Source: Sacculina carcini (lineage: Eukaryota > Arthropoda > Thecostraca > Sacculinidae). Taken from it: 64,000 nucleotides of DNA. Location of the stretch: the NCBI GenBank assembly GCA_916048095.2, contig OU696592.1:2751915-2815914 (forward strand). The letters are read 5' to 3'. How positions within the stretch are numbered: position 1 is the stretch's first letter; every line of letters starts with the position of its first letter. Position numbers and translations under genes: made by a program. Positions 6,509 to 60,723 of the stretch are shown here, one piece after another. The notes beneath the pieces are model-generated. The model was not told where the DNA came from. It made no database searches and saw only the letters and a list, made by a program, of their open reading frames with translations.

Positions 6509-6605
6509 ATTTGCGACACGTGTTTGGATCTTGGTGGATAGTGGCGGAGTGGATCCCTTTGTAAGTAAATACTTTGGACTGATAATTCTAGGTCTCAGTC
6601 ATTGG
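6509..6605 (+). repeat. ~100-bp direct repeat, copy 1
   Basis: Begins TTGCGACACGTGTTTGGATC and ends near AGTCATTGGATT. A second copy in the same orientation lies at 9498-9596, so the pair brackets the LINE and BEL/Pao fragments. They may be remnants of LTR or untranslated sequence of the BEL element, but no full LTR can be defined. Confidence 0.6.
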
Positions 6606-6660
6606 ATTTAGACTTAAAGACTTCGAGAACCGGTCGAATTCTAAATGCGAGTTCACTTGT

Positions 6661-8878: not shown

Positions 8879-8940
8879 CACGGCTGATCTGATTGTTGCT
8901 ACGGGCGAGATGTGTGCCTTTTTTGCATATGTCACTCTTC

Positions 8941-8957
8941 GCATCATCATCATCATT
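8941..8957 (+). repeat. (ATC)n 3' tail of the LINE
   Basis: GCATCATCATCATCATTCC follows the LINE stop codon by about 65 bp. Short trinucleotide tails are typical of RTE-type LINEs. The sequence switches to BEL/Pao coding immediately afterwards, so this marks the LINE 3' end. Confidence 0.7.
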
Positions 8958-9480: not shown

Positions 9481-9497
9481 GGGGTAGCTGCTCGTCG

Positions 9498-9596
9498 CTT
9501 GCGACACGTGTTTAGATCTTAGTGGATAGTGGCGGAGTGGATCATTATGGAAGTGAATATTGTGGACTGATAATTTTGGTTATCAATCATTGGATT
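9498..9596 (+). repeat. ~100-bp direct repeat, copy 2
   Basis: TTGCGACACGTGTTTAGATC to AATCATTGGATT matches 6509-6605 with scattered differences, including GTGGATAGTGGCGGAGTGGA in both. It directly follows the BEL/Pao fragment, with no recognisable gap sequence. Confidence 0.6.
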
Positions 9597-9773
9597 ATTC
9601 TGTACGGAATTGAAAGATATTAACTGTAATATAAAAGTTTATAGTCAGTCAAAATAATTTATTAATTCGTTAAGTGAGTTCAGTGATCCTTTTATTAATT
9701 GAGTATAATATTTAGTGAATCCTTTTGTTTTGCGAACTTTTAGTAAAATTTTTCACTCTAGCTAACGTGTAGA

Positions 9774-10073
9774 ATGTCTGCTATGGCAAAACGGACTCAC
9801 CCGTCGATCAGCGGCACTTCTTGTAGGATTTGGTGTGCGGTGCGCATGCGCAAGTCGGAGCCCGCATCCGGCGCGATTCGCAACGCCAGTGGCACGCCCA
9901 CGCCGACAGTAGCAGCCAAAGCCACAGCCATCACCGTACACGCGGCCCAACACACGCAGCCACATGTAACGGCCCCCACTGACAAAGCCCACACACACAT
10001 CAATTTAGCAAGGAATTTGTCTAGGAATTTGTCAATGAATTTAGCAGGGAATATAGCATGGAATTATCAATAA
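9774..10073 (+). CDS. Hypothetical 99-residue open frame, GC-rich, of unknown origin
   Basis: A GC-rich patch (9774-9995) in AT-rich surroundings encodes a Thr/Ala/His-rich segment that ends in a repetitive NLARNLSRNLSMNLAGN tail. The tail comes from a short tandem repeat of GGAATTTGTC-like units at about 10007-10060. No family is recognised. Its position about 180 bp after a possible LTR-derived repeat would allow the start of a BEL gag, but there is no zinc knuckle or other supporting motif. The reverse strand is also open, so coding is doubtful. Confidence 0.2.
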   Translation: MSAMAKRTHPSISGTSCRIWCAVRMRKSEPASGAIRNASGTPTPTVAAKATAITVHAAQHTQPHVTAPTDKAHTHINLARNLSRNLSMNLAGNIAWNYQ

Positions 10074-10312
10074 ATTGCCAAATATTGAGTTTGTTTTTAA
10101 TTGGATATATTTTATATTATTAGCATCGATTTGAACAATAATAGTATATCAGTCCAATATAGATGTTAACTTATGATATATGTTAGTTTTCAATATCATT
10201 AATATCATAATTGAACAAGTTATACAAATATAAAGTCTATTACCCATTACATCCCGGTGAACTCAAATGACATCATTTTATAATGACTATATTTTGTAGT
10301 TTCTTGTCTATA
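10074..10312. other. Unclassified AT-rich spacer
   Basis: No coding potential or repeat similarity to the rest of the window seen by eye. Confidence 0.5.
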
Positions 10313-10696
10313 TTAACCCATTATTGCCTGGTGTCCAGGAAATGGTACGCTAGAAAATACGTATAGTGACTTTATCTGGCAGTATGCTATGATGCTATGA
10401 TGTCATGCTATGATGAGGAGAGACCATGAACATCAGCATGTCTGCCATTTAACGGGCAGCGCAGCCAAACATATTTAGTACGTGTTGTGAACCGGTACAC
10501 TGCAGAGTTGCATCCGGGCGGCTGCACGGCATCGCTCCCTTGGAGTCATATTGTTGTAATTTGTTTACTACCTGTTTCTATTTGCATACAACTGCTTTAA
10601 CAAGTACATGCATGTTGTAGCTGTGAATTTAAATCATAAATAGATATCGCATTTGATATGGCTTTGAGTTATAACAATTAATTCATGGCTGTCCAT

Positions 10697-10714
10697 TTTT
10701 CTGGACGCTGGGCA
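10697..10714 (+). repeat. Inverted 18-mer inside the piggyBac-like element (left copy)
   Basis: TTTTCTGGACGCTGGGCA is the exact reverse complement of 11946-11963. A related direct motif, GCCTGGTGTCCAGGAAA, lies at the element's left end near 10327. They are possible transposase-binding sub-terminal repeats. Confidence 0.6.
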
Positions 10715-10886
10715 TTCATTACCAAGGTTCATTGCAAATAAGGATCTCTATATACACAGAGGCTCTTTTGATCATTACAAGTGTAGGTATTATAAAAATG
10801 AATAAAAACTATAAATTCCTTTCAATTCTTAATTAATTAAATTTTAACTCGTACCTATATTATAATGGTGCTGTATTTGTAATGAG

Positions 10887-11306
10887 CAGTGGCGGCGCTA
10901 AGGGGGGCTTGAGGGTGGCAGCTCCCCCAAAAATATGCCAAATTCCCTAAGCTCCCCCAAAAATCTTAACCATGGACAGCAAAATTTCTTACCACTGTAC
11001 ATTCTTACCACTGTACACTGTACATGTATATGAAGCTATACTGTCCTACATTGATTTTCCAGTAATTAAGTATTTATTATTGTTATGACGTTTGCGTTTG
11101 TGTCAATGTGCCAATATCTATCCTATGGTATTCACCTAATTTATTCCAATATGTCCTTCAATTGTGGTTCAAGTTCGAGGACTGAATCAGTGTGCCCCAG
11201 TTCCTTATTATAATATAATGTACTCTGCGTTTCGCCAGGCCCCCACCACTTATACCTTAACCTGCCCCCTCAGCCTCCCATCTGAAAAATTGTGACGCCG
11301 CTACTG
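10887..11306. mobile_element. hAT-like MITE, 420 bp, nested in the piggyBac-like element
   Basis: Left end CAGTGGCGGCGCTA; right end read inward is CAGTAGCGGCGTCAC. The CAGTGGCGG start followed by a G-rich run is common in hAT-type non-autonomous elements. The flanking 8-mers GTAATGAG (10879-10886) and ATAATGGG (11307-11314) match at 6 of 8 positions, consistent with an old hAT 8-bp target duplication. There is no open frame. Confidence 0.6.
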
Positions 11307-11945
11307 ATAATGGGGGTAGAAATGATTGCCTTCGGGGGTGGGCATAAGGCCTTGCATCGGCTCTGAGTCTTGGTATTTTGAAAATATATGTTGACTCAAA
11401 AACATGCTCGTATACAATGCTTTAATTTCTCCTCACTTGAATTATATTGGATAATAGACGTTTCCCGTGCATATAGGCTACACGTTCCAAAACAAGTCGT
11501 TTCGGCTTATACCTTACAATTATATTAAATTTTGTGTTTGTATTTGTGTTTGAACCCACGGCATAGCCACACGTACAACACAAACACAATACAATTATTA
11601 TTTAATGTAATAATAATATTACGTTAATTATAATATTATAATATAATATTACATGGTGTAAAATACCCTTAACGCACTCTGAAATGATTGAAAAATGATA
11701 TTGAAATGCTTTCCTGGAGAAATCTGTTGTAATATAGTTGTATTTCAATTGTAGTATTTCAATTGATGGAAATGATGGTCTCTACAAACTCAGATCACTC
11801 CTTGAGCATATAATGATGGAATGACTCACCTTTTGACTCCTTCTCGAATGTTGATATTGCGCAGGACCTAACACTCGTAATAAGACGGATCATATACGCT
11901 GAAAGTGCATTTATTCGCATATAATGGAATCATGTTACTGTTAGG

Positions 11946-29364: not shown

Positions 29365-31717
29365 TAAATATTACGGACAATAAAGCCTTTATATTCAGTA
29401 TAGTGTAGCATTAATTAAACTGTACGCAATAAAACCACACCATCCATGCTTGGAGCTAATATGATACATTCTTAATTGTGATTGGGCTTCAGTGAAATTT
29501 TATCGGTGTATATTCCTGTGAAATCGCAAGTGCGCATAATAGCTGTCAAATTGGCAATATGTCCCTTTGACTTTACACCGCCGTAACTTCCTTCAGATAC
29601 ACTTTGGAAAATTAAAAATTATACTGGATTGTAGAAAACAAAATTTCCAGCACTATGGTATAATTTATTTTTATGTGTAACAAATAGTCACTGGAAAATA
29701 GTAGAAAAATGAATTTATTTTAGTCGCCCGGTGATCAAGTGTAATTTTGGATGTATTTGATAATTTTGCCAATTTTACACGTTTTTTTGTATGATTTGTG
29801 GGTTTAAATTATAGCTTATCTTGTAGAACACAAAATTCTCTACACAGTAGTATATTCCTGTGTAATCGCAAGTGCGTAAATTGTGATTGGACTTCAGTGA
29901 AATTAAATCAGTGTATATTCATTTGTAATCGCAAGCGCGCATAATAGCTGTCAAATTGGCAACATGACATTTTGACTTTACACCGCCGTAACCTCCTTCA
30001 GATACACTTTGGAAAATTAAAAATTATACCGTATTGTAGAAAACAAGATTTCTAGCACGATGGTACAATTTATTTTTATGTGTAACAAATATTTACTGAG
30101 AAATAGTAGAAAAATGAATATATTTTAGTCGCCCGGTGTTCAAGTGTAATTTTGGATGTAATTGAGAATTTTGCCAATTTTACACGTTTTTGTATCATTT
30201 GTGGGTATAAATTATAACTTATATTGTAGAACACAAAATTCTCTACACAGTAGTATATTCTTGTGTAATCGCAAGTGCGTAAATTGTGATTGGACTTCAG
30301 TGAAATTAAATCAGTGTATATTCCTGTGTAATCGCAAGTGCGCATAATAGCTGTCAAATTGGCAACATGACATTTTGACTTTACACCGCCGTAACTTCCT
30401 TTAGATACATTTTGGAAAATTAAAAATTCAACCGTATTGTAGAAAACAAAATCTCTAGCACGATGGTATAATTCATTTTAATTTGTGACAATTAGTTTTT
30501 GAGAAATAGGTAGAAAAATGAATTAATTTTAGTCACCCGGTGTTCAAGTGTAATTTTGGATGTATTTGCGAATTTTGCCAATTTTACACGTGTTTTGTAT
30601 CATTTGTGGGTATAAATTATAACTCATCTTGTAGAACACAAAATTATCTACACAGTAGTATATTCCTGTGTAATCGCAAGTGCGCATAATAGCTGTCAAA
30701 TTGGCAATATGTCCTTTTGACTTTACACCGCCGTAACGTCCTTTAGATACACTTTGGAAAATTACAAATTATACCGTATTGTAGAAAACAAAATTTCTAG
30801 CACGATGGTATAATTTATTGTAATGTGTGACAAATAGTTCCTGAGAAATGGGTAGAAAAATAAATTAATTTTAATCACCCGGTGTTCAAGTGTAATTTTG
30901 GATGTATTTGAGAATTTTGCCAATTGTACACGTTTTTTGTATCATTTGTGGGTATAAAGTATAACTTTTCTTGTAGCACACAAAATGATCTACACAATAG
31001 TATAATTTTTATAGCTGTACCATTGCTGGTTTATGAGGAATAGATAGCGGAATATTGACCAAAATATTCACGTTTTTTGTGCTAATTTTGCCTTTTTGCT
31101 TTTTTGTCATTTACACTTCACACCGCCGTAACTTTTTTTTAATACACTTTGGAAAATTAAAATTTATACCGTGCTGTAGCAAACAAAATTTCCAGCATGA
31201 TGGTATTATTTATTTAGATGTGTCATAGTTAGTTGCTGAGAAATATAGAAAAAAGTATAGAAAATCGGACGCGTGGAGTTTAAATAAAATTTTGAATGTA
31301 GATTGATTTTTCTTCCATTTTACATGTTTTATATTTAATTTTTGGGTAGAAATTTTAATTCGTTGAGTAGAACAGACAATTTTATACACAGTGGTATAAT
31401 TTTTATAGTTGTACCATTGCTGGTTTAGGAAGAGTAGTCTTCAGAAAATTGACCAAAATTTTCGCATTTTTAAGGGTTCATTTTGTCTTTTCACCGCTAT
31501 AACTTTTTTGATTTCATTTTTGAAATTTAAAATTTAATCTGAAGTGTAGACAAGAAAATTTCCAACGTGATGGTATAAATTTTGAGCGGGTAGGCCAAGT
31601 GGTGGCCAAATAATAGCTGATAGAAAATGGACCAAGGAGGGTTGAACAGACACACAGACACACACACAGACACACACACACACACACAGAGGATCTCTTT
31701 CATATATACATTTTATG
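29365..31717 (-). repeat. Linker module and R1 array with terminus
   Basis: Several ~340-bp units followed by the second and third subtypes, then GGACCAAGGAGGGTTGAACA, a CACA-rich tract and CTCTTTCATATATACATTTT. This terminus is degenerate compared with the canonical CTCTTTTATATATATAGA. Confidence 0.75.
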
Positions 31718-32324
31718 TATAGATTTAAGCCCGCCCGTCGTGCGGAACAGTTCATAAAATATAATTAATATTCAATTCAGAAAAAAATTAGTGCAAATTG
31801 AAAAAGAAAAACCCGCCCATAGGAAAGTTTTAGCCAAAATAAAAGTCTAAATGTGAAACTCATTTTTCAATTTAGAAAACATGTTTTTCCACAACGCGCC
31901 TCATATTTAAAGCTGCCCGTCGTGCGGAAAAATTCATAACTCAAACACGAAACAAACACAAAAAAAATTGATGAAAAACGACCAATAGAAAAAGTCAAAT
32001 TTGTAAATTCTTGTTTCAATTATTGACGAAGTTTTTTCTCTCAACACTGCTCAAATTCACACCCGTCCTTCGTGTGTAGTAATTCAGAAGTGTAACACTA
32101 CCAAAACAATGAAACTTTCTGTAATCTCTATAATTCCAGATTAATGCTTACTCAAAAACAGCATATGCATATAGTTGGCATTGCATGATATTACAACCCA
32201 TATCCTTATGCAACTTAAACGTATGCAACTTGAAATAAAACCAATTAAATTACACAGTAAAATTCAGTAGTTTACTTTGCTCCCAGTAGCATTTTACCCG
32301 CCCGTCGTGCGAACAATTCATGTG
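31718..32324 (-). repeat. Short R2 array
   Basis: Three hairpin cores (31731, 31914, 32297) with the TTAGCCAAAATAAAAGTCTA and ACACCCGTCCTTCGTGTGTA modules. A near-identical copy lies at 37410-38010. Confidence 0.7.
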
Positions 32325-33552
32325 TAAATATTGAGGACAATAAAGCCTTTATATTCAGTATAGTGTAGCATTAATTAAACTGTACGCAATAAAACCACAC
32401 CATCCATGCTTGGAGCTAATATGATACATTCTTAATTGTGATTGGGCTTCGGTGAAATTTAATCGGTGTATATTCCTGTGAAATCGCAAGTGCGCATAAT
32501 AGCTGTCAAATTGGCAATATGTCCTTTTGAATTTACATCGCCGTAACTTCCTTCAGATACACTTTGGAAAATTAGAAATTATACTGCATTGTAGAAAACA
32601 AAATTTACAGTACGATGGTATAATTTATTTTTATGTGTAACAAATAGAGACTGGAAAATAGTAGAAAAATGAATATATTTTAGTCGCCCGGTGTTCAAGT
32701 GTAATTTTGGATGTATTTGAGAATTTTGTCAATTTTACACGTTTTGTGTATCATTTGTGGGTATAAATTATAACTTTTCTTGTAGAACACAAAATTATCT
32801 ACACAATAGTATAATATTTATAGCTGTACCATTGCTGGTTTATGAGGAATAGATAGCGGAATATTGACCAAAATATTCACGTTTTTTTGTGCTAATTTTG
32901 CCTTTTTGACTTTGTCATTTACACTTCACACCGCCGTAATTTTTTTAAATACAATTTGGAAAATTCAAAATTATACCGTGGTGTAGAAAACAAAATTCCC
33001 AGCATGATGGTATTATTTATTTAGATGTGTGATAATTAGTTTTTGATAAATAGAGAAAAATGTATAGAAAATCGGACGCGTTGAGTTTAAATAATATTTT
33101 GAATGTAGATTGAATTTTTTTTTTCATTTAACATGTTTTATATTCATTTTTGGGTATAAATTATAGTTTGTTGAGTAGAACAGAAAAGTTTCTACAGAGT
33201 GGTATAATTTTTATAGTTGTACCATTGCTGATTTAGGAAGAGTAGTCTTCAGAAAATTGACCAAAATTTTCGCATTTTTCAGGGTTCATTTTGTCTTTTC
33301 ACCGCTATAACTTTTTTTTGTTTTATTTTTAAAATTAAAATATTTACTTAAAGTGTAGACAAGAAAGTTTCCAACGTGATGGTAAAATTTTTACCTAAAG
33401 TGTAGACAAGAAAGTTTCCAACGTGATGGTATAAATTGTTAGCGGGTACGGTGAGTGATGGCCCAATAGGAGCTGATAGAAAATGGAGCAAGGAGGGTGG
33501 GACAGACAGACAGACACACACACACACAGACACACAGAGGATCTCTTTTATA
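32325..33552 (-). repeat. Linker and R1 array with TC terminus
   Basis: One main unit, then the second and third subtypes. The last segment AAGTGTAGACAAGAAAGTTT is doubled in tandem (33352 and 33400). The terminus carries CAGACACACACACACACAGA and ends TATATATACTAGCATT, fused to the next R2. Confidence 0.75.
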
Positions 33553-36186
33553 TATATACTAGCATTAAAACCCGCCCGTTGTGCGGAACAATTCATAAAA
33601 ATATTGCAAATTAAAAATAAATAAGGCAAACTCATGAAAACCTTAATCAATTAAAAAGTCTAAATTTCATTATTTTTAATTTTATTTTGACAAAATATTT
33701 TCACTCAACCCGCCTCATATTTAAACCCGCCCGACGTGAGGAATAATTCAGAACTCGAACACCATCCGTTCTGGTTCTTGAAGTCAAATCCATTAGTTTT
33801 GTATATGAATTCATTCTATACGGTGAAATTGAACCTTTTATTGCTGCCCGCGGGACATTTTTATTTCATAAAAATGAGCCATCGCTTCGTTTGCGTTTCA
33901 AGCCCCTGATCATTGAACCAGCGAACCATGAACCAGCGCAATTATGTCACCTCATATTCAAGCATACATACACAGACAGACAGATAATTTCTTCTTTATG
34001 TATATATATATAGCATTAAAACCCGCCCGTTGTGCGGAGCAATTCATAACATGAAATTCATATTCAATTCATAAAAAAATATGGAAAAATAAAAATGAAA
34101 TAGGGTACACTCATAAAAATATTAATCAATTGAAAATTATAAGTTTAATTATTTTTATTTCGACAAAATATTTCCCCTCAGTTGGCCTGAGTCATTTTTA
34201 AACCCGCCCGTCGTGCTGAATAATTCAGAACTCGAACACGATCCATTCTGCATCTTGAAGTCAAATCCATTGGTTTTGTGTATGGATTAATTCTACAGGG
34301 TAAATTGAACGTTCTATTGTCTATAGTTGCTGCCCGCGGAGCATTTTTATTTTAAAATATACCTTTTTTTAAATGAATATTTGAAAAAATGAACTAAACA
34401 ATGGAAACCCTTTTTTTAACCCCGCCCGTCGTGCGGAACAATTCATACAGTAAAATTCATATTTGAAGTCAAATCCATTGGTTTTGTGTATGGATTAATT
34501 CTACAGGGGAAATGGAACGTTCTATTGTCTATAGTTGCTGCCCGCGGAGCATTTTTATTTAAAAAAAAAACTTTTTTAAATGAACCATTTGAAAAAATGA
34601 ACTAAAACACTTTTTTTAAACCCGCCCGTCGTGCGGAACAATTCATACAATAAAATTCATATCAAATCCATAAAATATAATGAATACAAATTGAAAACCA
34701 AAAAATGTAACCTATAAATATCTTAACCAATAGAAAAGTCTAAATGTGAATATTTTTGTTCTTATTTTGACAAATATTATCCCTCAACCCGCCTGATATA
34801 TAAATCTGCCCGTCGTGTGGTATAATTTAGAACACAAACACGAAACAAACAATGAAAGATGATGAAATCTTTTCATCAGAATGTTTCCTAACTATATTTA
34901 TTACTTAACATCATTCCCCAATATCATTTGCTTAAGTACTATTTTACTTTTACCGCTATAATATTTATTGATAAAATTTATATATTTTCCGCTATCATTA
35001 AAACCCAATATAACCTGAGTCAAACCTACCCAACCCAACCCAACCATCCAATCTTGACCGCTCTCAGCCTAGTCTGAGGTGATTTAACTTATTAGTTTGT
35101 AATCACAAAATATACTGATGCGATCATAATTTGTAATCAGAAGACTGAGATTATCTACCCCAGGGGTCCCAAACACGCGGCCCACCAATACTTATCTCTC
35201 AACCCGTCAATATAGTATCGGAACCAAACTGTAAGGCAGCTAAATTCACATTTGTTGCATAATGCGATATAATTATACACCATTATCATATCATCTCATA
35301 ATTCCCGGTTAATGCTTCCACTAAAGCATCATATTCATACAGTTGTTATTTTTTGGATTACACCGATATTAAAGCCCTTGATATTACAGCCGATATTATA
35401 TTATGCAATCTATATTCTGCTACGTATTATTCCTAATACATATATCATCAGATCGCAAAATATATTTAAAGGTTCACATCATTCTCCAAAATCATTTGCT
35501 TAAGAGCTATTCTACTTTTATCGCTAGAATATTTACTGCTAGCAAAATATCATATACCTCGCTATCATTTAAACCCACTCTTTATAGATACATTTAATTC
35601 GCCCGTCGTGCGGAACAGTTCATAAAATATAATTAATATTCAATTCATAAAAAATTAGTGCAAATTGAAAAAGAAAAACAAACCCACAGGAAAGTTTTAG
35701 CTACTATAAAAGTCTAAATGTAAAATTTATGTTTCAATTTAGAAAACATGTTTTTGCACAACCCGCCTCATATTTAAAGCTGCCCGTCGTGCGGAATAAT
35801 TCAGAACTTAAACACGAAACAAACACAAAGAAAATTGACGAAAAACGACCAATAGAAAAGTCAAATTTGTAAATTCTTGTTTTAATTATTGACGATGTTT
35901 TTCCCTCAACACTACTCAAATTCACACCCGTCCTTCGTGTGTAGTAATTCAGAGGTGTAACACTATCAAAACAATGAAACATCTCTATAATTCCAGATTA
36001 ATGCTTCCTCTAAAACAGCATATGCATATACTTGGCATTGCATGATATTACAACCCGTATCCTTATGCAACTTAAGCGTATGCAACTTGAAATTAAACCA
36101 ATTAAATTACACAGTAAAATTCAGTAGCTTACTTTGTTCCAAGTAGCATTTTACCCGCCCGTCGTGCGGAACATTTAATGTGTAAA
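33553..36186 (-). repeat. R2 array around the unoccupied insertion site
   Basis: A 450-bp type monomer (33558-34011) ends in CTTCTTTATG followed by 12 bp of TA repeat and GCATTAAAACCC. This A/B junction at 33999-34012 is the uninterrupted counterpart of the site occupied by the 39696-45628 element. The complex R2 block follows to 36186. Confidence 0.75.
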
Positions 36187-36380
36187 TATTGAGGACAATA
36201 AAGACTTTCTATTCAGTATAGTGTAGCATTAATTAAACTGTACGCAAAAAAACCACACCATCCATGCTTGGAGATAATATGATGCATTCTTAATTGTGAT
36301 TGGGCTTCAGTGAAATTTAATCGGTGTATATTCCTGTGTAATCGCAAGTGCGCATAATAGCTGTCAAATTGGCAATATGT

Positions 36381-39300
36381 CCTATTGACTTTACACCGCC
36401 GTAACGTCCTTTAGATACACTTTGGAAAATTACAAATTATACCGTATTGTAGAAAACAAAATTTCTAGCACGATGGTATAATTTATTGTAATGTGTGACA
36501 AATAGTTCCTGAGAAATGGGTAGAAAAATAAATTAATTTTAATCACCCGGTGTTCAAGTGTAATTTTGGATGTATTTGAGAATTTTGCCAATTGTACACG
36601 TTTTTTGTATCATTTGTGGGTATAAAGTATAACTTTTCTTGTAGCACACAAAATTATCTACACAATAGTATAATTTTTATAGCTGTACCATTGCTGGTTT
36701 ATGAGGAATAGATAGCGGAATATTGACCAAAATATTCACGTTTTTTGTGCTAATTTTGCCTTTTTGCTTTTTTGTCATTTACACTTCACACCGCCGTAAC
36801 TTTTTTTTAATACACTTTGGAAAATTAAAATTTATACCGTGCTGTAGCAAACAAAATTTCCAGCATGATGGTATTATTTATTTAGATGTGTCATAGTTAG
36901 TTGCTGAGAAATATAGAAAAAAGTATAGAAAATCGGACGCGTGGAGTTTAAATAAAATTTTGAATGTAGATTGATTTTTCTTCCATTTTACATGTTTTAT
37001 ATTTAATTTTTGGGTAGAAATTTTAATTCGTTGAGTAGAACAGACAATTTTCTACACAGTGGTATAATTTTTATAGTTGTACCATTGCTGGTTTAGGAAG
37101 AGTAGTCTTCAGAAAATTGACCAAAATTTTCGCATTTTTAAGGGTTCATTTTGTCTTTTCACCGCTATAACTTTTTTGATTTCATTTTTGAAATTTAAAA
37201 TTTAATCTGAAGTGTAGACAAGAAAATTTCCAACGTGATGGTATAAATTTTGAGCGGGTAGGCCAAGTGGTGGCCAAATAATAGCTGATAGAAAATGGAC
37301 CAAGGAGGGTTGAACAGACACACAGACACACACACAGACACACACACACACACACACAGACACACACACACACACACACAGAGGATCTCTTTCATATATA
37401 CATTTTATGTATAGATTTAAGCCCGCCCGTCGTGCGGAACAGTTCATAAAATATAATTAATATTCAATTCAGAAAAAAATTAGTGCAAATTGAAAAAGAA
37501 AAACCCGCCCATAGGAAAGTTTTAGCCAAAATAAAAGTCTAAATGTGAAACTCATTTTTCAATTTAGAAAACATGTTTTTCCACAACGCGCCTCATATTT
37601 AAAGCTGCCCGTCGTGCGGAAAAATTCATAACTCAAACACGAAACAAACACAAAGAAAATTGATGAAAAACGACCAATAGAAAAAGTCAAATTTGTAAAT
37701 TCTTGTTTCAATTATTGACGAAGTTTTTTCTCTCAACACTTCTCAAATTCACACCCGTCCTTCGTGTGTAGTAATTCAGAAGTGTAACACTACCAAAACA
37801 ATGAAACTTTCTGTAATCTCTATAATTCCAGATTAATGCTTACTCAAAAACAGCATATGCATATAGTTGGCATTGCATGATATTACAACCCATATCCTTA
37901 TGCAACTTAAACGTATGCAACTTGAAATAAAACCAATTAAATTACACAGTAAAATTCAGTAGTTTACTTTGCTCCCAGTAGCATTTTACCCGCCCGTCGT
38001 GCGAACAATTCATGTGTAAATATTGAGGACAATAAAGCCTTTATATTCAGTATAGTGTAGCATTAATTAAACTGTACGCAATAAAACCACACCATCCATG
38101 CTTGGAGCTAATATGATACATTCTTAATTGTGATTGGGCTTCGGTGAAATTTAATCGGTGTATATTCCTGTGAAATCGCAAGTGCGCATAATAGCTGTCA
38201 AATTGGCAATATGTCCTTTTGAATTTACATCGCCGTAACTTCCTTCAGATACACTTTGGAAAATTAGAAATTATACTGCATTGTAGAAAACAAAATTTAC
38301 AGTACGATGGTATAATTTATTTTTATGTGTAACAAATAGAGACTGGAAAATAGTAGAAAAATGAATATATTTTAGTCGCCCGGTGTTCAAGTGTAATTTT
38401 GGATGTATTTGAGAATTTTGTCAATTTTACACGTTTTGTGTATCATTTGTGGGTATAAATTATAACTTTTCTTGTAGAACACAAAATTATCTACACAATA
38501 GTATAATATTTATAGCTGTACCATTGCTGGTTTATGAGGAATAGATAGCGGAATATTGACCAAAATATTCACGTTTTTTTGTGCTAATTTTGCCTTTTTG
38601 ACTTTGTCATTTACACTTCACACCGCCGTAATTTTTTTTAATACAATTTGGAAAATTCAAAATTATACCGTGGTGTAGAAAACAAAATTCCCAGCATGAT
38701 GGTATTATTTATTTAGATGTGTGATAATTAGTTTTTGATAAATAGAGAAAAATGTATAGAAAATCGGACGCGTTGAGTTTAAATAATATTTTGAATGTAG
38801 ATTGAATTTTTTTTTCATTTAACATGTTTTATATTCATTTTTGGGTATAAATTATAGTTTGTTGAGTAGAACAGAAAAGTTTCTACAGAGTGGTATAATT
38901 TTTATAGTTGTACCATTGCTGATTTAGGAAGAGTAGTCTTCAGAAAATTGACCAAAATTTTCGCATTTTTCAGGGTTCATTTTGTCTTTCCACCGCTATA
39001 ACTTTTTTTTGTTTTATTTTTAAAATTAAAATATTTACTTAAAGTGTAGACAAGAAAGTTTCCAACGTGATGGTAAATTTTTTACCTAAAGTGTAGACAA
39101 GAAAGTTTCCAACGTGATGGTATAAATTGTTAGCGGGTACGGTGAGTGATGGCCCAATAGGAGCTGATAGAAAATGGAGCAAGGAGGGTGGGACAGACAG
39201 ACAGACACACACACACACAGACACACAGAGGATCTCTTTTATATATATACTAGCATTAAAACCCGCCCGTTGTGCGGAACAATTCATAAAAATATTGCAA

Positions 39301-39695
39301 ATTAAAAATAAATAAGGCAAACTCATGAAAACCTTAATCAATTAATAAGTCTAAATTTCATTATTTTTAATTTTATTTTGACAAAATATTTTCACTCAAC
39401 CCGCCTCATATTTAAACCCGCCCGACGTGAGGAATAATTCAGAACTCGAACACCATCCGTTCTGGTTCTTGAAGTCAAATCCATTAGTTTTGTATATGAA
39501 TTCATTCTATACGGTGAAATTGAACCTTTTATTGCTGCCCGCGGGACATTTTTATTTCATAAAAATGAGCCATCGCTTCGTTTGCGTTTCAAGCCCCTGA
39601 TCATTGAACCAGCGAACCATGAACCAGCGCAATTATGTCACCTCATATTCAAGCATACATACACAGACAGACAGATAATTTCTTCTTTATGTATA
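36381..39695 (+). repeat. Segment A', second copy of part A
   Basis: Near-identical to 30711-34005, with one R1 array, a short R2 array, another R1 array and a 450-bp R2 monomer. The main difference is a longer CA/CAGA microsatellite at 37316-37380. The copy stops at GTATA (39691-39695), where the Helitron-like element begins. Confidence 0.8.
37316..37380 (+). repeat. CA/CAGA microsatellite in an R1 terminus
   Basis: ACAGACACACAGACACACAC-like tract, about 20 bp longer than the paired tract at 31646-31689. It is the only notable length change between the two A copies. Confidence 0.85.
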
Positions 39696-39723
39696 TCTAT
39701 ATATATAAAAGAGATCCTCTGTG

Positions 39724-39755
<32 letters not shown>

Positions 39756-42700
39756 CCACCCTCCTTGGTCACATTTTCAGCAAGCTGCTACTCGGTAACC
39801 ACTTAATGTACCCGCCAACAATTTATACCATTACGTTGGAAAATTTCTTGTCTACGCGATAGGATACATTTCAAATTTTAAAAATAAAACCAAAAAAAGT
39901 TATCGCGGTGAAAAGACAAAATGAACCCTGGAAAATGCGAAAATTTTGGTCAATATTCCTACATCTACTCATCATAAACCAGAAATGGTACAGCCAAACA
40001 GATTATACCACTGTGTAGAAAATATTCTGTTCTACACGATAGGCTATAATTAATATCCAAAAATTAAATATAAAATATGTAAAAATGACAAAATTTCAGT
40101 CTACATTCAAAATTATATTTAAGCTCGACGCGTCCGATTTTTTGTACTTTTTTCTCTATTTCTCAGCAACTAACTATGACACATCTAAATAAATATTACC
40201 ATCATGCTGGGAATTTTGTTTTCTACAGCACGGTATAATTTTTAATTTTCCAGAGTGTATTAAAAAAAAGTTACGGCGGTGTGAAGTCAAAATGACAAAG
40301 TCAAAAATTCAAAATTAGCACTGGAAACCGTGAATATTTTGGTAAATATTCCGCTATATATTCCTCATAAACCAGAAATGGTACAGCTATAAAAATTTAA
40401 CTATTGTGTAGAGAATTTTGTGTTCTACAAGAAATATTCTAATTTATACCCACAAATGATACAAAAAACGTGTAAAATTGGCAAAATTATCAAATACATC
40501 CAAAATTACACTTGAACACCGGGTGACTAAAATTAATTCATTTTTCTACTATTTCTCAGTAACTATTTGTCACACATCAAAATTAATTATACCATCGTGC
40601 TAGAAATTTTGTTTTCTACAATACGGTATAATTCTTCATTTTCCAAAGTATATCTGAAGGAAGTTACGGCGGTGTAAAGTTAAAAGGACATATTGCCAAT
40701 TTGACAGCTATTATGCGCAATTGCGATTACACAGGAATATACTACTGTGTAGAGAATTTTGTGTTCTACAAGAAAAGGTGTAATTTATACCCACAAATGA
40801 TACAAAAAACGTGTAAAATTGGCAAAATTCTCAAATGCATCCAAAATTACACTTGAACACCGGGTGACTAAAATTTATTCATTTTTCTACCCATTTCTCA
40901 GGAACTGTTTGTCACACCTTAAAATTAATTATACCATCGTGCTAGAAATTATGTTTTCTACAATACGGTATAATTTTTAATTTTCCAAAGTGTATCTGAA
41001 GGAAGTTACGGCGGTGTAAAGTCAAAATGTCATGTTGCCAATTTGACAGCTATTATGCGTACTTGCGATTACACATGAATATACACTGATTTAATTTCAC
41101 TAAAGTCCAATCACAATTTACGCACTTGCGATTACACAGGAATATACTACTGTGTAGAGAATTTTGTGTTCTACAAGATAAGCTATAATTTATACCCACA
41201 AATGTTACAAAAAACGTAGAAAATTGGCAAAATTCTCAAATACATCCAAAATTACACTTGAACACCGGGCGACTAAGATTAATTCTTTTTTGTACTATTT
41301 CTCAGTAACTATTTGTAACACATAAAAATAAATTATACCATAGTGCTAGAAATCTTATTTTCTACAAAACGATATAATTTGTAATTTTCCAAAGTGTATC
41401 TGAAGGAAGTTACGGCGGTGTAAAGTTAAAAGCACATATTACCAATTTGACAGCTATTATGCGCACTTGTGATTACACAGGAATATACACCGATTAAATT
41501 TCACTGAAGCCCAATCACAATTAAGAATGCATCATATTAGCTCCAAGCATGGATCGTGTGGTTTTATTGGGTACAGTTTAATAAATGCTACACTATACTG
41601 AATAGAAAGGCTTTATTGTCCTCAATATTTACACATGAATTGTTCCGCCCGACGGGCGGGTAAAATACTACTGGGAACAAAGTTAACTACTGAATTTTAC
41701 TGTATAATTTAATTGGTTTAATTTCAAATTGCATAAGCTTAACTTGCATAAGGATATGGGTTGTAATATCATGCAATGCCAACTATATGAATATGCTGTT
41801 TTAGCGGTCGCATAAATCTGGAATTATAGAGATGACAGAAAGTTTCATTGTTTTGATAGTGTTACACTTCTGAGTTACTACACACGAAGGACGGGTGTGA
41901 ATTTGAGCCGTGTTGAGGGAAAAACATCGTCAATAATTAAAACAAGAATTTACAAATTTGACTTTTTCTGTTGGTCGTTTTTCATCAATTTTCTTTGTGT
42001 TTGTTTCGTGTTTGAATTATTCCGCACCACGGGCAGCTTTAAATATGAGGCGGGTTGTGGAAAAACATGTTTTCTAAATTGAAGCATAAATTTCACATTT
42101 AGACTTTTATATTGGCTAAAACGTTCCTATGGGTTTGTTTTTCTTTTTCAATTTGCACTAATATTTTTATGAATTCAATATTAATTATATTTTATGAACT
42201 GTTCCGCACGACGGGGGAATTAAATGTATCTATAAAGAGTGGGTTTAAATGATAGCGAGGTATATGATATTTTGCTAGCAGTAAATATTCTAGCGATAAA
42301 AGTAGAATAGCTCTTAAGCAAATGATTTTGGAGAGTGATGTGAACCTTTAGATATATTTTGCGATCTGATGATATATGTATTAGGAATAATACGTAGCAG
42401 AATATAGATTGCATAATATAATATCGGCTGTAATATCAAGGGCTGTAATATCGGTGTAATCAAAAAAATAACAACTGTATGAATATGATGCATTAGTGGA
42501 AGCATTAACCGGGAATTATGAGATAATATGATAATGGTGTATAATTATATCGCATTATGCAACAAATGTGAATTTAGCTGCATTACAGTCTGGTCCCGAT
42601 ACTATATTGGCGGGTTGAGAGAAAAGTATTGGTGGGCCGCGTGTTTGGGACCCCTGGGGTAGATAATCTCAGTCTTCTGATTACAAATTATGATCGCATC

Positions 42701-45628
42701 AGTATTTTTTGTGATCACAAACTAATAAGTTAAATCACCTCAGACTAGGCTGAGAGCGGTCAATATTGAATGGTTGGGTTGGGTTGGGTAGGTTTGACTC
42801 AGGTTATATTGGAATTTAATGATAGCGGAAAATATATAAATTTTAACAATAAATATTATAGCGGTAAAAGTGAAATAGTACTTGAGCAAATGATATTGGG
42901 GAATGATGTTAAGTAATAAATATAGTTTGGAAACATTCTGATGAAAAGATTTCATCATCTTTCATTGTTTGTTTCGTGTTTGTGTTCTGAATTATACCAC
43001 ACGACGGGCAGATTTATATATCAGGAGGGTTGAGGAATAATATTTGTCAAAATAAGAACAAAAATATTCACATTTAGACTTTTCTATTGGTTAAGATATT
43101 TATAGGTTACATTTTTTGGTTTTCAATTTGTATTCATTATATTTTCTGGATTTGATATGAATTTTATTGTATGAATTGTTCCGCACGACGGGTGGGTTTA
43201 AAAAAGTGTTTTTAGATCATTTTTTCAAATGTTTCATTTAAAAAAAGTTTTTTTTATAAATAAAAATGTTCCGCGGGCAGCAACTATAGACAATAGAACG
43301 TTCAATTTCCCCTGTAGAATTAATCCATACACAAAACCAATGGATTTGACTTCAAATATGAATTGTATTGTATGAATTGTTCCGCACGACGGGCGGGTTT
43401 ACAAAAAGTGTTTCCATTTTTTAGTTCATTTTTTCAAATGGTTCATTTAAAAAAAGGTATTTAAAAAAAATAAAAATGCTCCGCGGGCAGCAACTATAGA
43501 CCATAGAACGTTAAATTTACCCTGTAGAATTAATCCATGCACAAAACCAATGGATTTGACTTCAAGATCCAGAACGGATCGTGTTCGAGTTCTGAATTAT
43601 TCAGTTATTCGAGTTCTGAATTATTATTCAGCACGACGGGCGGGTTTAAAAATGACTCAGGCGGACTAAGGGGGAATATTTTGTCGAAATAAAAATAATT
43701 AAACTTATAATTTTCAATTGATTAATATTTTTATGAGTGTACCCTATTTCATTTTTATTTTTCCATATTTTTTTATGAATTGAATATGAATTGAATATGA
43801 ATTGTTATGAATTGCTCCGCACAACGGGCGGGTTTTAATGCTATATATATACATAAAGAAGAAATTATCTGTCTGTCTGTGTATGTATGCTTGAATATGA
43901 GGTGACATAATTGCGCTGGTTCATGGTTCGCTGGTTCAATGATCAGGGGCTTCAAACGCAAACGAATCGATGGCTCATTTTTATGAAATAAAAATGTCCC
44001 GCGGGCAGCAATAAAACGTTCAATTTCACCGTATAGAATGAATTCATATACAAAACTAATGGATTTGACTTCAAGAACCAGAACGGATGGTGTTCGAGTT
44101 CTGAATTTTTCCTCACGTCGGGCGGGTTTAAATATGAGGCGGGTTGAGTGAAAATATTTTGTCAAAATAAAATTAAAAATAATGAAATTTAGACTTTTTA
44201 ATTGATTAAGGTCTTCATGAGTTTGCCTTATTTATTTTTAGTTTGCAATATTTTTATGAATTGTTCCGCACAACGGGCGGGTTTTAATGCGGTTTTAATG
44301 CTATATATATTCATAAAGAAGAAATTATCTGTCTGTCTATGTATGTATGCTTGAATATGAGGTGACATAATTGCGCTGGTTCATGGTTCGCTGGTTCAAT
44401 GATCAGGGGCTTCATACGCAAACGAAGCGATGGCTCATTTTTATGAAATAAAAATGTCCCGCGGGCAGTTATTCATGTTATGAATTGCTCCGCACAACGG
44501 GCGGGTTTTAATGCTAGTATATTCATAAAGAAGAAATTATCTGTCTGTCTATGTATGTATGCTTGAATATGAGGTGACATAATTGCGCTGGTTCATGGTT
44601 CGCTGGTTCAATGATCAGGGGCTTCAAACGCAAACGAAGCGATGGCTCATTTTTATGAAATAAAAATGTCCCGCGGGCAGTTATTCATGTTATGAATTGC
44701 TCCGCACAACGGGCGGGTTTTAATGCTAGTATATACATAAAGAAGAAATTATCTGTCTATCTGTGTATGTATGCTTGAATATGAGGTGACATAATTGCGC
44801 TGGTTCATGGTTCGCTGGTTCAATGATCAGGGGCTTCAAACGCAAACGAAGCGATGGCTCATTTTTATGAAATATAAATGTCCCGCGGGCAACAATAAAA
44901 CGTTCAATTTCACCGTATAGAATGAATTCATATACAAAACTAATGGATTTGACTTCAAGAACCAGAACGGATGGTGTTCGAGTTCTGAATTATTCCTCAC
45001 GTCGGGCGGGTTTAAATATGAGGCGGGATGAGTGAAAATATTTCGTCAAAATAAAATTAAAAATAATGAAATTTAGACCTTTTAATTGATTAAGGTTTTC
45101 ATGAGTTTGCCTTATTTATTTTTAATTTGCAATATTTTTATGAATTGCTCCGCACAACGGGCGGGTTTTAATGCTATATATATATACATAAAGAAGAAAT
45201 TATCTGTCTGTCTGTGTATGTATGCTTGAATATGAGGAGACATAATTGCGCTGGTTCATGGTTCGCTGGTTCAATGATCAGGGGCTTCAAACGCAAACGA
45301 AGCGATGGCTCATTTTTATGAAATAAAAATGTCCCGCGGGCAGCAATAAAACGTTCAATTTCACCGTATAGAATGAATTCATTTACAAAACTAATGGATT
45401 TGACTTCAAGAACCAGAACGGATGGTGTTCGAGTTCTGAATTATTCCTCACGTCGGGCGGGTTTAAATATGAGGCGGGTTGAGTGAAAATATTTTGTCAA
45501 AATGAAATTAAAAATAATGAAATTTAGACCTTTTAATTGATTAAGGTTTTCATGAGTTTGCCTTATTTGTTTTTAATTTGCAATATATTTATGAATTGCT
45601 CCGCACAACGGGTGGGTTTTAATGCTAG
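39696..45628 (+). mobile_element. Helitron-like non-autonomous element, 5933 bp, with precise insertion
   Basis: Starts TCTATATATATAAAAGAG at 39696, preceded by A. It ends with the hairpin CCGCACAACGGGTGGG, TTTTAATG and CTAG at 45625-45628, followed by T. The left flank is CTTCTTTATGTATA and the right flank is a TA run then GCATTAAAACCC. The sister locus at 33992-34012 has these flanks joined with only TA repeat between them, so the element is absent there. There is no target duplication. Inside, R1 (39696-41500) leads through the linker to R2 (41640-45628). There is no Rep, helicase or other coding frame; length and organisation resemble large non-autonomous Helitron-like repeats. Identity to 16049-20897 suggests recent transposition. 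Confidence 0.7.
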
Positions 45629-47816
45629 TATATATATATAGCATTAAAACCCGCCCGTTGTGCGGAGCAATTCATAACATGAAATTCATATTCAATTCAT
45701 AAAAAAATATGGAAAAATAAAAATGAAATAGGGTACACTCATAAAAATATTAATCAATTGAAAATTATAAGTTTAATTATTTTTATTTCGACAAAATATT
45801 TCCCCTCAGTTCGCCTGAGTCATTTTTAAACCCGCCCGTCGTGCTGAATAATTCAGAACTCGAACACGATCCATTCTGCATCTTGAAGTCAAATCCATTG
45901 GTTTTGTGTATGGATTAATTCTACAGGGTAAATTGAACGTTCTATTGTCTATAGTTGCTGCCCGCGGAGCATTTTTATTTTAAAATATACCTTTTTTTAA
46001 ATGAACCATTTGAAAAAATGAACTAAACAATGGAAACCCTTTTTTTAACCCCGCCCGTCGTGCGGAACAATTCATACAGTAAAATTCATATTTGAAGTCA
46101 AATCCATTGGTTTTGTGTATGGATTAATTCTACAGGGGAAATGGAACGTTCTATTGTCTATAGTTGCTGCCCGCGGAGCATTTTTATTTAAAAAAAATAC
46201 CTTTTTTAAATGAACCATTTGAAAAAATGAACTAAAACACTTTTTTTAAACCCGCCCGTCGTGCGGAACAATTCATACAATAAAATTCATATCAAATCCA
46301 TAAAATATAATGAATACAAATTGAAAACCAAAAAATGTAACCTATAAATATCTTAACCAATAGAAAAGTCTAAATGTGAATATTTTTGTTCTTATTTTGA
46401 CAAATATTATCCCTCAACCCGCCTGATATATAAATCTGCCCGTCGTGTGGTATAATTTAGAACACAAACACGAAACAAACAATGAAAGATGATGAAATCT
46501 TTTCATCAGAATGTTTCCTAACTATATTTATTACTTAACATCATTCCCCAATATCATTTGCTTAAGTACTATTTTACTTTTACCGCTATAATATTTATTG
46601 ATAAAATTTATATATTTTCCGCTATCATTAAAACCCAATATATCCTGAGTCAAACCTACCCAACCCAACCCAACCATCCAATCTTGACCGCTCTCAGCCT
46701 ATTCTGAGGTGATTTAACTTATTAGTTTGTAATCACAAAATATACTGATGCGATCATAATTTGTAATCAGAAGACTGAGGTTATCTACCCCAGGGGTCCC
46801 AAACACGCGGCCCACCAATACTTATCTCTCAACCCGTCAATATAGTATCGGAACCAAACTGTAAGGCAGCTAAATTCACATTTGTTGCATAATGCGATAT
46901 AATTATACACCATTATCATATCATCTCATAATTCCCGGTTAATGCTTCCACTAAAGCATCATATTCATACAGTTGTTATTTTTTGGATTACACCGATATT
47001 AAAGCCCTTGATATTACAGCCGATATTATATTATGCAATCTATATTCTGCTACGTATTATTCCTAATACATATATCATCAGATCGCAAAATATATTTAAA
47101 GGTTCACATCATTCTCCAAAATCATTTGCTTAAGAGCTATTCTACTTTTATCGCTAGAATATTTACTGCTAGCAAAATATCATATACCTCGCTATCATTT
47201 AAACCCACTCTTTATAGATACATTTAATTCGCCCGTCGTGCGGAACAGTTCATAAAATATAATTAATATTCAATTCATAAAAAATTAGTGCAAATTGAAA
47301 AAGAAAAACAAACCCACAGGAAAGTTTTAGCTACTATAAAAGTCTAAATGTAAAATTTATGTTTCAATTTAGAAAACATGTTTTTCCACAACCCGCCTCA
47401 TATTTAAAGCTGCCCGTCGTGCGGAATAATTCAGAACTTAAACACGAAACAAACACAAAGAAAATTGACGAAAAACGACCAATAGAAAAGTCAAATTTGT
47501 AAATTCTTGTTTTAATTATTGACGATGTTTTTCCCTCAACACTACTCAAATTCACACCCGTCCTTCGTGTGTAGTAATTCAGAGGTGTAACACTATCAAA
47601 ACAATGAAACATCTCTATAATTCCAGATTAATGCTTCCTCTAAAACAGCATATGCATATACTTGGCATTGCATGATATTACAACCCGTATCCTTATGCAA
47701 CTTAAGCGTATGCAACTTGAAATTAAACCAATTAAATTACACAGTAAAATTCAGTAGCTTACTTTGTTCCAAGTAGCATTTTACCCGCCCGTCGTGCGGA
47801 ACATTTGATGTGTAAA
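45629..47816 (-). repeat. R2 array, opening part of segment B'
   Basis: Same module order as 34012-36180 at a constant offset of 11630, with rare substitutions (for example TTGGCC at 34180 against TTCGCC at 45810, and AACATTTAATG at 36171 against AACATTTGATG at 47801). Confidence 0.8.
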
Positions 47817-48005
47817 TATTGAGGACAATAAAGACTTTCTATTCAGTATAGTGTAGCATTAATTAAACTGTACGCAAAAAAACCACACCATCCATGCTTG
47901 GAGATAATATGATGCATTCTTAATTGTGATTGGGCTTCAGTGAAATTTAATCGGTGTATATTCCTGTGTAATCGCAAGTGCGCATAATAGCTGTCAAATT
48001 GGCAA
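45642..48005 (+). repeat. Segment B', second copy of part B
   Basis: Pairs with 34012-36375. With A' it completes the second copy of the AB unit, split by the 5933-bp element. After about 48005 the two copies diverge inside R1. Confidence 0.8.
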
Positions 48006-50100
48006 TATGTCCTTTTGACTTTACACCGCCGTAACTTCCTTCAGATACCCTTTGGAAAATTACAAATTATACCGTATTGTATAAAACAAGATTTCTAGCA
48101 CGATGGTATAATTTATTTTTATGTGCAACAAATAGAGACTGAGAAATAGTAGAAAAATGAATAAATTTTAGTCGCCCGGTGTTCAAGTGTAATTTTGGAT
48201 GTATTTGAGAATTTTGCCAATTTTACACGTTTCTTGTATCATTTGTGGGTATAAATTATAGCTTATCTTGTAGAACACAAAATTATCTACACAGTAGTAT
48301 ATTCCTGTGTAATCGCAAGTGCGCATAATAGCTGTCAAATTGGCAACATGACATTTTGACTTTACATCGCCGTAACTTCCTTTAGATACACTTTGGAAAA
48401 TTAAAAATTATACCGTATTGTAGAAAACAAAATTTCTAGCACGATGGTATACTTTATTTTTTTGTATAACAAATAGTTACTGATAAATAGTAGAAAAATG
48501 AATTAATTTTAGTCGCCCGGTGTTCAAGTGTAATTTAGGATGTATTTGAGAATTTTGCCAATTTTACACGTTTTTGTATCATTTGTGGGTATAAATTATA
48601 ACTTTTCTTGTAGAACACAAAATTATCTACAGAGTAGTATATTCCTGTGTAATCGCAAGTGCGTAAATTGTGATTGGACTTCAGTGAAATTAAATCAGTG
48701 TATATTCATGTGTAATCGCAAGTGCGCATAATAGCTGTCAAATTGGCAACATGACATTTTGACTTTACACCGCCGTAACTTCCTTCAGATACCCTTTGGA
48801 AAATTACAAATTATACCGTATTGTAGAAAACAAGATTTCTAGCACGATGGTATAATTTATTTTTATGTATAACAAATAGTTACTGATAAATAGTAGAAAA
48901 ATGAATTAATTTTAGTCGCCCGGTGTTCAAGTGTAATTTTGGATGTATTTGAGAATTTTGCCAATTTTACACGTTTTTGTATCATTTGTGGGTATAAATT
49001 ATAGCTTATCTTGTAGAACACAAAATTATCTACACAGTAGTATATTCTGTGTGATCGCAAGTGCGCATAATAGCTGTCAAATTGGCAACATGACATTTTG
49101 ACTTTACATCGCCGTAACTTCCTTTAGATACACTTTGGAAAATTAAAAATTATACCGTATTGTAGAAAACAAAATTTCTAGCACGATGGTATAATTTATT
49201 TTTATGTATAACAAATAGTTACTGATAAATAGTAGAAAAATGAATTAATTTTAGTCGCCCGGTGTTCAAGTGTAATTTTGGATGTATTTGAGAATTTTGC
49301 CAATTTTACACGTTTTTGTATCATTTGTGGGTATAAATTATAAATTTTCTTGTAGAACAAAAAATTATCTACACAATAGTATAACTTTTATAGCTGTACC
49401 ATTGCTGGTTTATAAGGAATAGATAGCGAAATATTGACCAAAATATTCACGCTCTTGTGTGCTAATTTTGCCTTTTTGACTTTGTCATTTACACTTCACA
49501 CCGCCGTAACTTTTTTTAATACACTTTGTAAAATAAAAAATTATACTGTGTTGTAGAAAACAAAATTCCCAGCATGATGGTATTATTTATTTAAATGTGT
49601 GATAATTAGTTTTTGAGGAAGAGAGAAAAAAGTATAGAAAATCGGACGCGTGGAGTTTAAATAAAATTTTGAATGTAGATTGATTTTTTTTCAATTTTAC
49701 ATGTTTTATATTTAATTTTTGGGTATAAATTATAATTTGTTGAGTAGAAGAGAAAATTTTCTACACAATGGTATAATTTTTATAGTTGTACCATTGCTGT
49801 TTTAGGAGGAGTAGTCTTCAGAAAATTGACCAAAATTTTCTTATTTTTCAGGGTTCATTTTGTCTTTTCACCGCTATAACATTTTTTTATTTCATTTTTG
49901 AAATTTAAAATTTAATCTAAAGTGTAGACAAGAAAATTTCCAACGTGATGGTATATATTGTTAGCGGGTACGCCAAGTGGTGGCCGAGTATTAGCTGATA
50001 GAAAATGGACCAAGGATGGTGAGCACACACACACAGACACACACACAGACACACACACAGACACACAGAGGATCTCTTTTATATATATAGATAGATATAT
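47817..50100 (-). repeat. Linker and R1 array with TC terminus
   Basis: Four or more main-subtype units near 48010-49370, then the second and third subtypes. The terminus is GGACCAAGGATGGTGAGCAC with a CACAGACACACACACAGACA tract and CTCTTTTATATATATAGATA at 50075-50094. Confidence 0.75.
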
Positions 50101-59320: not shown

Positions 59321-60232
59321 CTAGTTCCCTAAAATAAAATTTGGAATCAAATTTATGACGATGCGGACTTCGTGCTCCTCGAATAACAGCTCTGCTCCAA
59401 CGGTGTGTGTCTGAAGCTGCTCGCCCAAAGCCGACGGGTGTTTACGCTCGAGCTCCTCTAGCACCGCGTCGTTGTATCCGGCCAGGTAGTCACTGGACGT
59501 CAACAGCTGGAGAGCCTCACCAATATCGCCATCGTCGCACTTTGCTCTGACTCAGCGAACTCAAGCCTTGTCCTTGTCCTGCTGTAACCACGGTCGTTTT
59601 GGCGTCCTTCGGTGTTTGGGTGCTGATGTTTCGGTGCTTATTGGGTGTGTTAAAGCATAATATAGCAGTTTCCACTAGGCCGAGAGGGAACGCTGCTCGA
59701 GAGCCGCCGTGATGTGCTGGGCGAGATCGATCGAAACCCGATGACGCAGCGCACGTGGGACGTGCTGACACACTCGGCGTTGCTGCCTGAGCTCAGCAAG
59801 CGAATCAGCCAGATCTACCGGAGTGGTGGTGTTGTTACCATCGACTGGCGGGTCCACGTTGTCATCAACACCGCTGCGGTGCAAGCAGGCCCCGCAATAC
59901 CACACCGAAAAAACGTCTGCCTGTGCCAGGGTGATTCTCATGCAAGTGAGATGGAAATACCGCTCACTTAGCGCACAGGAAATTGCTCTCCTTCTTCTGT
60001 TAGCGGTGCCGCAGTGATGGCAGGCCTGTGAACGATCGGATCCTTCGCCTACGCTCGGGGATCGCTCAAACCTGTACCACGACCGTTGGCAGCATGCGAG
60101 ACGACACGGCGCGGACGATCTGCAGTGTGAAGTGAGACGGCATCGTTCCAAGAAGACGCAGTTCATCATAATCTCGCTGCGTTCGCAAATGTTCGTGCTG
60201 ACCGACAGCTGTGTGGGCATTTCAAGACACAC
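59321..60232 (-). pseudogene. N-terminal part of the LINE with PHD-like zinc finger
   Basis: The 185-codon frame (60232-59675) contains a C-x2-C-x11-C-x2-S-x4-H-x2-C-x15-C-x2-C array: CHHCG, ISCALSERYFHLTC and WYCGAC. This is a PHD-type C4HC3 spacing with the fourth ligand Cys changed to Ser. Such fingers in LINE proteins are presumed to bind chromatin or nucleic acid. Downstream, in another frame, LTSSDYLAGYNDAVLEELER and KHPSALGEQL (59503-59400) match the linker that precedes the RT domain in this LINE family. An intact ATG-started protein cannot be read. Confidence 0.6.
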
Positions 60233-60723
60233 GACGCCAACAAATCATTGACTGTCAACCGGCACTTATTGGTGATCCTCGTCTTTGTCCGGCATTGTCG
60301 CCACGTAGCTGCAGGTAGATTGCGGTTTAGTGACATCTGGCGCTGGGTGAATGTCAAAAAATGCCTCGTTCACGCTCATTAACAATAACGAAAACAAGTA
60401 GTCACTCAATTTAATATAAAACCTAAGTTCCCTCAATTCTCTCAACACGGGTTTTCCTACATGATTTTCAACACAAACGAAGGCCAAATTTATCTAGTTT
60501 CACCTGGAAATTAATCAAAACTTTAGCAATTTTCACAGAGCGTCACGGTTCATAACACCCCTGATGCAGCATTGTAGCACGCGAGGTCACAATCCATGAC
60601 ATACCCTATACTCCCACTCAAACAACAACTATCAAAGACCTGATACCCTATCGAGATTTCACACAAAGCTTAGACCTCAACCAGACACTTCCACTCGCAA
60701 CAACGCTCAAACTCAAGCACTAA
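60233..60723. other. Possible 5' leader of the LINE, otherwise unclassified
   Basis: Composition shifts from GC-rich to AT-rich around 60350. No start site, promoter or repeat boundary could be recognised. Confidence 0.4.

Follow-up and report, generated by a model that had tools for sequence, protein, structure and literature searches.

The stretch analyzed here, referred to as the window, is 64 kb of contig OU696592.1 of Sacculina carcini (positions 2,751,915 to 2,815,914), and the element in question is C2, a 5,933-bp insertion on the plus strand at 39696..45628 of the window that is very probably a non-autonomous Helitron copy and a mosaic of two subfamilies. Direct reading of the sequence confirmed the start, end, length, and A/T borders given in a preliminary description of this DNA: an A precedes TCTATATATATAAAAG at 39696, and the element closes with AATG-CTAG at 45628, followed by T. 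The 5' terminus (39696..39721) reads TCTATATATATAAAAGAGATCCTCTG, and the first ~1.08 kb (39696..40780) is derived from a different subfamily than the remainder of C2. The 3' portion (43841..45628) is a tail of repeated 3'-end units, the majority of which close in ...GGGTTTTAATGCTA(G), with tandem periods of 451 and 212. The 3'-end motifs in C2 terminate at 43840, 44289, 44513, 44725, 45173, and 45624, the last of these directly before the terminal CTAG (45625..45628) and its T. The sole open frame of at least 130 aa in C2 (43773-44231, minus strand, 152 aa) has no Pfam match, in a scan that covered ten open frames of the window, one of them from C2, and this agrees with the preliminary description, which had recognized no coding sequence in the element. 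None of the 150 scored Helitron_like_N (PF14214) matches, from 179 candidates, lies in the window. The family to which C2 belongs is, as far as seen, non-coding.

C2 sits within an array of its own family. Its host is X (39250..50091, minus strand), a Helitron array unit of 4,909 bp without C2, with A/TC at 50091, CTAG at 39250, and no further minus-strand 5' end found between these two positions. The next head-to-tail unit, Y (33559..39249, minus strand, 5,691 bp), has its 5' end at 39249, immediately after the CTAG of X, and its own CTAG at 33559 is followed without a gap by a further unit, Z, at 33558. The tail of Y holds an empty site for C2 (33992..34012), in which both C2 flanks are joined by a TA run. 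The preliminary description had placed contiguous flanks at 33992-34012 in what it termed the sister 'AB' copy; the contiguity stands, but the sister is better described as a same-family neighboring Helitron of a head-to-tail array. When the sister (30658-36672) was aligned with the joined flanks of C2 (36326-39695 plus 45629-48301), 5,971 of 6,013 aligned bases were identical, and the gaps were four single nucleotides, a 24-nt stretch away from the join, and 4 nt of the TA run where the flanks meet; at the join itself, the 4 nt of the TA run are the only difference from the sister in the stretch of alignment printed. The jump in offsets noted earlier (from 5691 to 11630, a difference of 5939) is likewise as described, as BLAST offsets to the sister rise on the left from 5,668 to 5,691 through the 24-nt gap and stand at 11,628-11,629 on the right, a step of 5,937-5,938 that fits 5,933 + 4. 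Because of the TA run and the 4-nt difference, this site alone cannot exclude a duplication of TA or TATA.

Other copies of the family speak to this point directly. A search of the genome (264.4 Mb in 43 contigs, which are numbered separately from the copies C1 and C2) with the first kilobase of C2 as query gave 42 near-full-length matches including C2 itself, the best 40 of 4,856 candidates having been scored. Twenty of the other 41 matches were taken as 9.5-kb loci and 21 around their 5' ends (19 stretches of ~400 bp and one of 2.5 kb). Fourteen end pairs were available for the duplication test; L023 was excluded for a wrong TC, and 8 of the remaining 13 were left out because they adjoin or lie inside other family copies, although one of these, L028:3809-8357, served for its empty site. 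The five full-length copies that were kept have no family match in the 300-bp flank on either side (L010, 5,152 bp; L014, 4,350; L020, 3,493; L021, 4,328; and L025, 3,919). In one survey of 5' ends, the TC was misplaced for L030, L034, L046, and one L039 row, and L048 yielded no TC; none of the counts given here draws on that survey. An A precedes TC and a T follows CTAG in all five, and there is no string common to both sides in four of them, with L014 sharing TA. In addition, 106 candidate 5'/3' end pairs, most of them not true partners, were compared as joined flanks with the sequences of these loci. The joined flanks of L028:3809-8357 match gap-free at 118 of 120 bases (98.3%) and outside any TA run, and the uninterrupted form of this site, GGGCGAATTAAA directly followed by TGTATCTATAAAG, is found in L025, L022, and L017, the three displayed of 28 matches. 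L028:3809-8357 is a nested insertion whose empty sites show no duplication, and it is this copy, together with those flanked by sequence outside the family, that settles the absence of a target duplication where the C2 site cannot. The earlier claim of A/T insertion without duplication is thus upheld through other copies, while at C2 alone it is ambiguous.

Counts of termini across the genome extend these results. Only exact termini were counted, with variants excluded and with reversed sequences as the control. The exact 26-nt 5' end occurs 2,075 times (control, 0) and is preceded by A in 1,646 cases, directly by CTAG in 404, and by neither in 25, so that, once the ends abutting a CTAG are left out, A stands before TC in 1,646 of 1,671. 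The exact 27-nt 3' end occurs 2,571 times (control, 0), with T as the next base in 2,443. A genome-wide search for TC and CTRR ends had been named as a check in the preliminary description, and in these counts, A/TC and CTAG/T clearly predominate; the Helitron-type reading proposed there is accordingly supported by many copies beyond the C2 site. The 404 exact CTAG/TC head-to-tail junctions have no TA between the copies. Among the 100 places listed, there are 21 neighboring same-strand pairs less than 8 kb apart, some of them equally spaced (4,545, 4,544, and 4,544 on contig C4; 4,596 and 4,596 on contig C2) and most of them unequally. Equal unit spacing suits multimers or duplications; unlike neighbors, of the kind found on contig C11, would be in keeping with repeated insertion at a preexisting A/TC site, an alternative discussed for the tandem Helitrons of maize (PMC2267711). 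Helitrons in tandem have also been described from bats and plants and, in one paper, from Drosophila (PMC5876387, PMC5148889). Miniature Helitrons of ~460 bp with full 5' and 3' ends, resembling the tail unit, were also observed at L015 (~1028-1494, plus strand) and L027 (~1030-1496 of its minus strand).

In the window as a whole, 45.8 of the 64 kb match C2, with C2 itself included, and the ~40 kb between 12158 and 52603 are an almost uninterrupted accumulation of this single Helitron family, nested and in tandem. A reverse transcriptase frame (PF00078; 6592-8091, plus strand) lies between Helitron-family stretches, a PHD finger frame is found at 59675-60244 (minus strand), and a CATRA-C match at 8411-8878 falls below the cut-off (17.7 vs 24.6 bits). 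The window also holds a second full copy, C1, which is inverted relative to C2 (16049..21976, minus strand, 5,928 bp) and identical to it at 5,837 of 5,927 aligned bases. The 97 differing columns are very unevenly distributed, with 95 at C2 positions 29-1085 and 2 in the ~4.85 kb beyond, which defines a sharp mosaic border. The first kilobase of C2 is closer to other loci, with identities to the nearest of these of 98.5% (positions 1-400), 99.5% (400-800), and 100% (800-1050). Conversely, L009 on contig C11 is 98.5-100% like C1 over the first 3.6 kb, including the 5' end, and L029 continues this match to C1 position 4848; because these loci match C1 including its 5' end, C2 rather than C1 is the mosaic. 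On contig C11, this C1-like copy immediately follows another copy, which is 98.2% like C2 over its first 1.4 kb, a layout that could yield such a mosaic via exchange between neighbors. A pattern of 2 differences in ~4.85 kb beside 95 in the first 1,085 positions, in copies that are inverted within one window, also resembles the outcome of gene conversion, and it is possible, although unlikely, that the near-identity of C1 and C2 arose by conversion between the inverted copies, or by misassembly, in which case the age of C2 would be unreadable from divergence. Conversion alone leaves the precise TC and CTAG borders and the clean sister site unexplained.

Taken together, C2 is very probably a non-autonomous canonical (Helitron1-type) rolling-circle transposon. 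Apart from the hairpin, the testable sequence features of canonical Helitrons were found: a 5' TC, a 3' CTAG (CTRR), insertion between A and T, and no target duplication. We regard the family as new and very numerous and its kind as known, the literature search having been aimed at Helitrons in general. Among the defining features of the family, the hairpin is the weakest. In canonical Helitrons, a palindrome of 16-20 nt lies about 11 nt inside the 3' end. A strong hairpin had been expected in C2, and folding showed a weak one (45601..45611, plus strand).

Several observations, in addition to the location of the C2 site in a TA run with its 4-nt difference, weigh against this assignment. The hairpin of C2 has a 3-bp stem (-2.3 kcal/mol), and 100 of 200 shuffled sequences fold at least as well; the four commoner 3'-end variants have a 4-bp stem (-4.1 kcal/mol) within a GC-rich, imperfect 15-nt stem-loop located 13 nt from the end, for which 24 to 58 of 200 shuffles are as good. 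The hairpin placed before AATG-CTAG in the preliminary description is thus reduced to a stem of 3-4 bp, no better than shuffled sequence. TA is present on both sides not only of C2, C1, and L014 but also of L011 and L013, which both lie beside family copies. The count of exact 3' ends takes in internal tail units besides true ends. Gap-free matches were likewise obtained for the joined flanks of C1 (99.0%, at a tail junction in L017) and of L026:1501-5191 (100%), and these carry little weight, as the tails concerned offer further 3' partners that can be joined just as well. Finally, no Rep-bearing copy with both family ends (TCTATATATATAAAAGAG and TTTTAATGCTAG) was found among 14 Rep loci, with the downstream sequence read in 4, and the exact 5' end is absent from 12 Rep-upstream stretches and from two 9-kb stretches that each include a whole Rep frame.

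The weak 3' hairpin, along with internal tandem repeats and a microsatellite that follows the 5' end, both reminiscent of DINE-1-like elements (PMC4067079), would be in keeping with a Helentron, or Helitron2-type, element instead of a canonical Helitron. We consider this very improbable, as the target is A/T and not T-rich, the ends are TC and CTAG, and neither terminal nor subterminal inverted repeats in C2 rise above shuffled sequence, the longest shared inverted string being 5-7 nt and reached by 56-159 of 200 shuffles. Furthermore, a Pfam scan at E 0.001 detected neither an endonuclease nor an OTU domain in the two Rep-helicase proteins examined, which are not proven partners of C2. Similarly, there is little reason to believe that the empty site in Y marks the precise excision of a former copy rather than a site that was never occupied, since the uninterrupted tail junction recurs (15 filtered join matches for the C2 flanks, gapped within the TA run) and Helitrons are modeled as moving by strand copying (PMC4778049). 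The least probable alternative, a cut-and-paste DNA transposon of the Tc1/mariner type with a TA target duplication, would explain the TA on both sides of the five copies listed above, but there is no TA on the right in four of the five copies with flanks outside the family (L010, L020, L021, and L025), the L028 empty site lacks a duplication, C2 has no terminal inverted repeats above shuffles, and no TA separates the copies at the 404 CTAG/TC junctions.

If C2 is a non-autonomous Helitron, its mobilization would depend on a Rep-helicase encoded elsewhere in the genome. Open frames of at least 1,332 aa hold 15 of the 150 scored Helitron_like_N matches, and the two frames that were read (1,577 and 1,704 aa) are both unbroken and contain Helitron_like_N, PIF1, and Pif1_2B. 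The 1,577-aa frame is preceded, at a distance of about 1.2 kb, by a similar 5' end, A followed by TCTATAATAATAAAG, located directly after 60 bp that match the interior of C2 at 82%. A related 5' end is also present in 2 of 12 further stretches upstream of Rep sequences: on contig C12, a broken Rep copy (L060) begins with TCTATAATAATAAAAACG after an A, and another on contig C36 (L056) begins with TCTATAATAATAAAAAGG. On contig C36, 524 bp upstream of TCTATAATAATAAAAAGG, there is a 5' end of the same type, TCTATAATATAATAAAAACG, directly behind a family-type 3' end, GGGTTTAAATGCTAG, and the sequence between TCTATAATATAATAAAAACG and TCTATAATAATAAAAAGG (L056, minus strand, ~935-1456) includes a stretch 76% like the 5' subterminal positions 64-274 of C2. 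It is possible that the L056 element represents a link between autonomous and non-autonomous forms. The long Rep frames on contigs C36 and C1 were considered as partners, and neither 9-kb stretch has a family 5' or 3' end (allowing up to 3 and 4 differences, respectively) or, downstream of the frame, a hairpin before CTRR/T. When L056 and L060 were followed downstream, the Rep frame was found to break off and to be succeeded by C2-family modules, in the same direction on contig C36 and as inverted pieces on contig C12. Judging from the predicted proteins, suitable enzymes do exist in the genome, some with related 5' ends, and the C2 family may well be mobilized in trans by one of them. Several Rep genes on contigs C1, C8, C11, and C19 also display a Helitron_like_N match split at profile position ~161-163, with the second piece overlapping or adjoining the first, which could be read as a shared frameshift or an intron.

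A plausible sequence of events would begin with a Rep-helicase, supplied by an autonomous Helitron at another locus, nicking at TC, after which one strand would be peeled off as far as the CTAG 3' end and joined between the A and T of the target, with no bases duplicated. The array would have formed first, with C2 subsequently entering the tail of unit X, and the first kilobase of C2 would have been exchanged with another family member either before or after this insertion. In this scheme, the enzyme that moved C2, the intermediate (a single strand or a circle), and the timing of the insertion relative to the array are inferred. A broader, rather doubtful proposal is that the family builds itself into arrays, with its own tails, in which TA runs connect the repeated 3' ends, and its own A/TC 5' sites serving as preferred targets, repeated bypass of the end adding more 3' terminators to the tail, and exchange between neighbors creating mosaics that transpose as new units, in a satellite-like drift; the preference for its own tails and 5' sites is put forward here as a hypothesis. 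While a single insertion such as C2 is ordinary for a Helitron, the self-nesting and head-to-tail arrays are the most interesting side of this family. A single contiguous assembly contains thousands of its defined ends together with an empty site free of ambiguity, hundreds of exact junctions, and unbroken Rep-helicase frames, and this makes the family a natural test bed for the origin of tandem Helitron arrays, for which rolling-circle multimers, repeated insertion at an existing A/TC site, and unequal exchange could be compared.

Several features of the C2 family are shared with known systems. The oyster Helentron satellite carriers are reportedly non-coding and contain a microsatellite and internal tandem repeats, as does the C2 family. 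The same combination is described for the DINE-1/HINE Helentrons, which differ in their T-rich sites and subterminal inverted repeats, neither of which was found in the C2 family (PMC4067079). Helibat1/Helraiser of bats is like C2 in its 5' TC, its 3' CTAG, and its insertion between A and T, and the circles of Helraiser have precise CTAG-TC joined ends, as do the head-to-tail junctions of the C2 family; unlike C2, which has no recognized coding sequence and a stem of 3-4 bp, Helraiser encodes a transposase and carries a 19-bp palindrome 11 nt from its end (PMC4778049). A parallel to the arrays comes from the head-to-tail Helitrons of maize and Myotis, in which, as in the C2 family, CTAG is directly followed by TC, giving a G/T junction without a host A. 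That report describes one case in maize and several in Myotis, compared with 404 exact junctions in the C2 family (PMC2267711).

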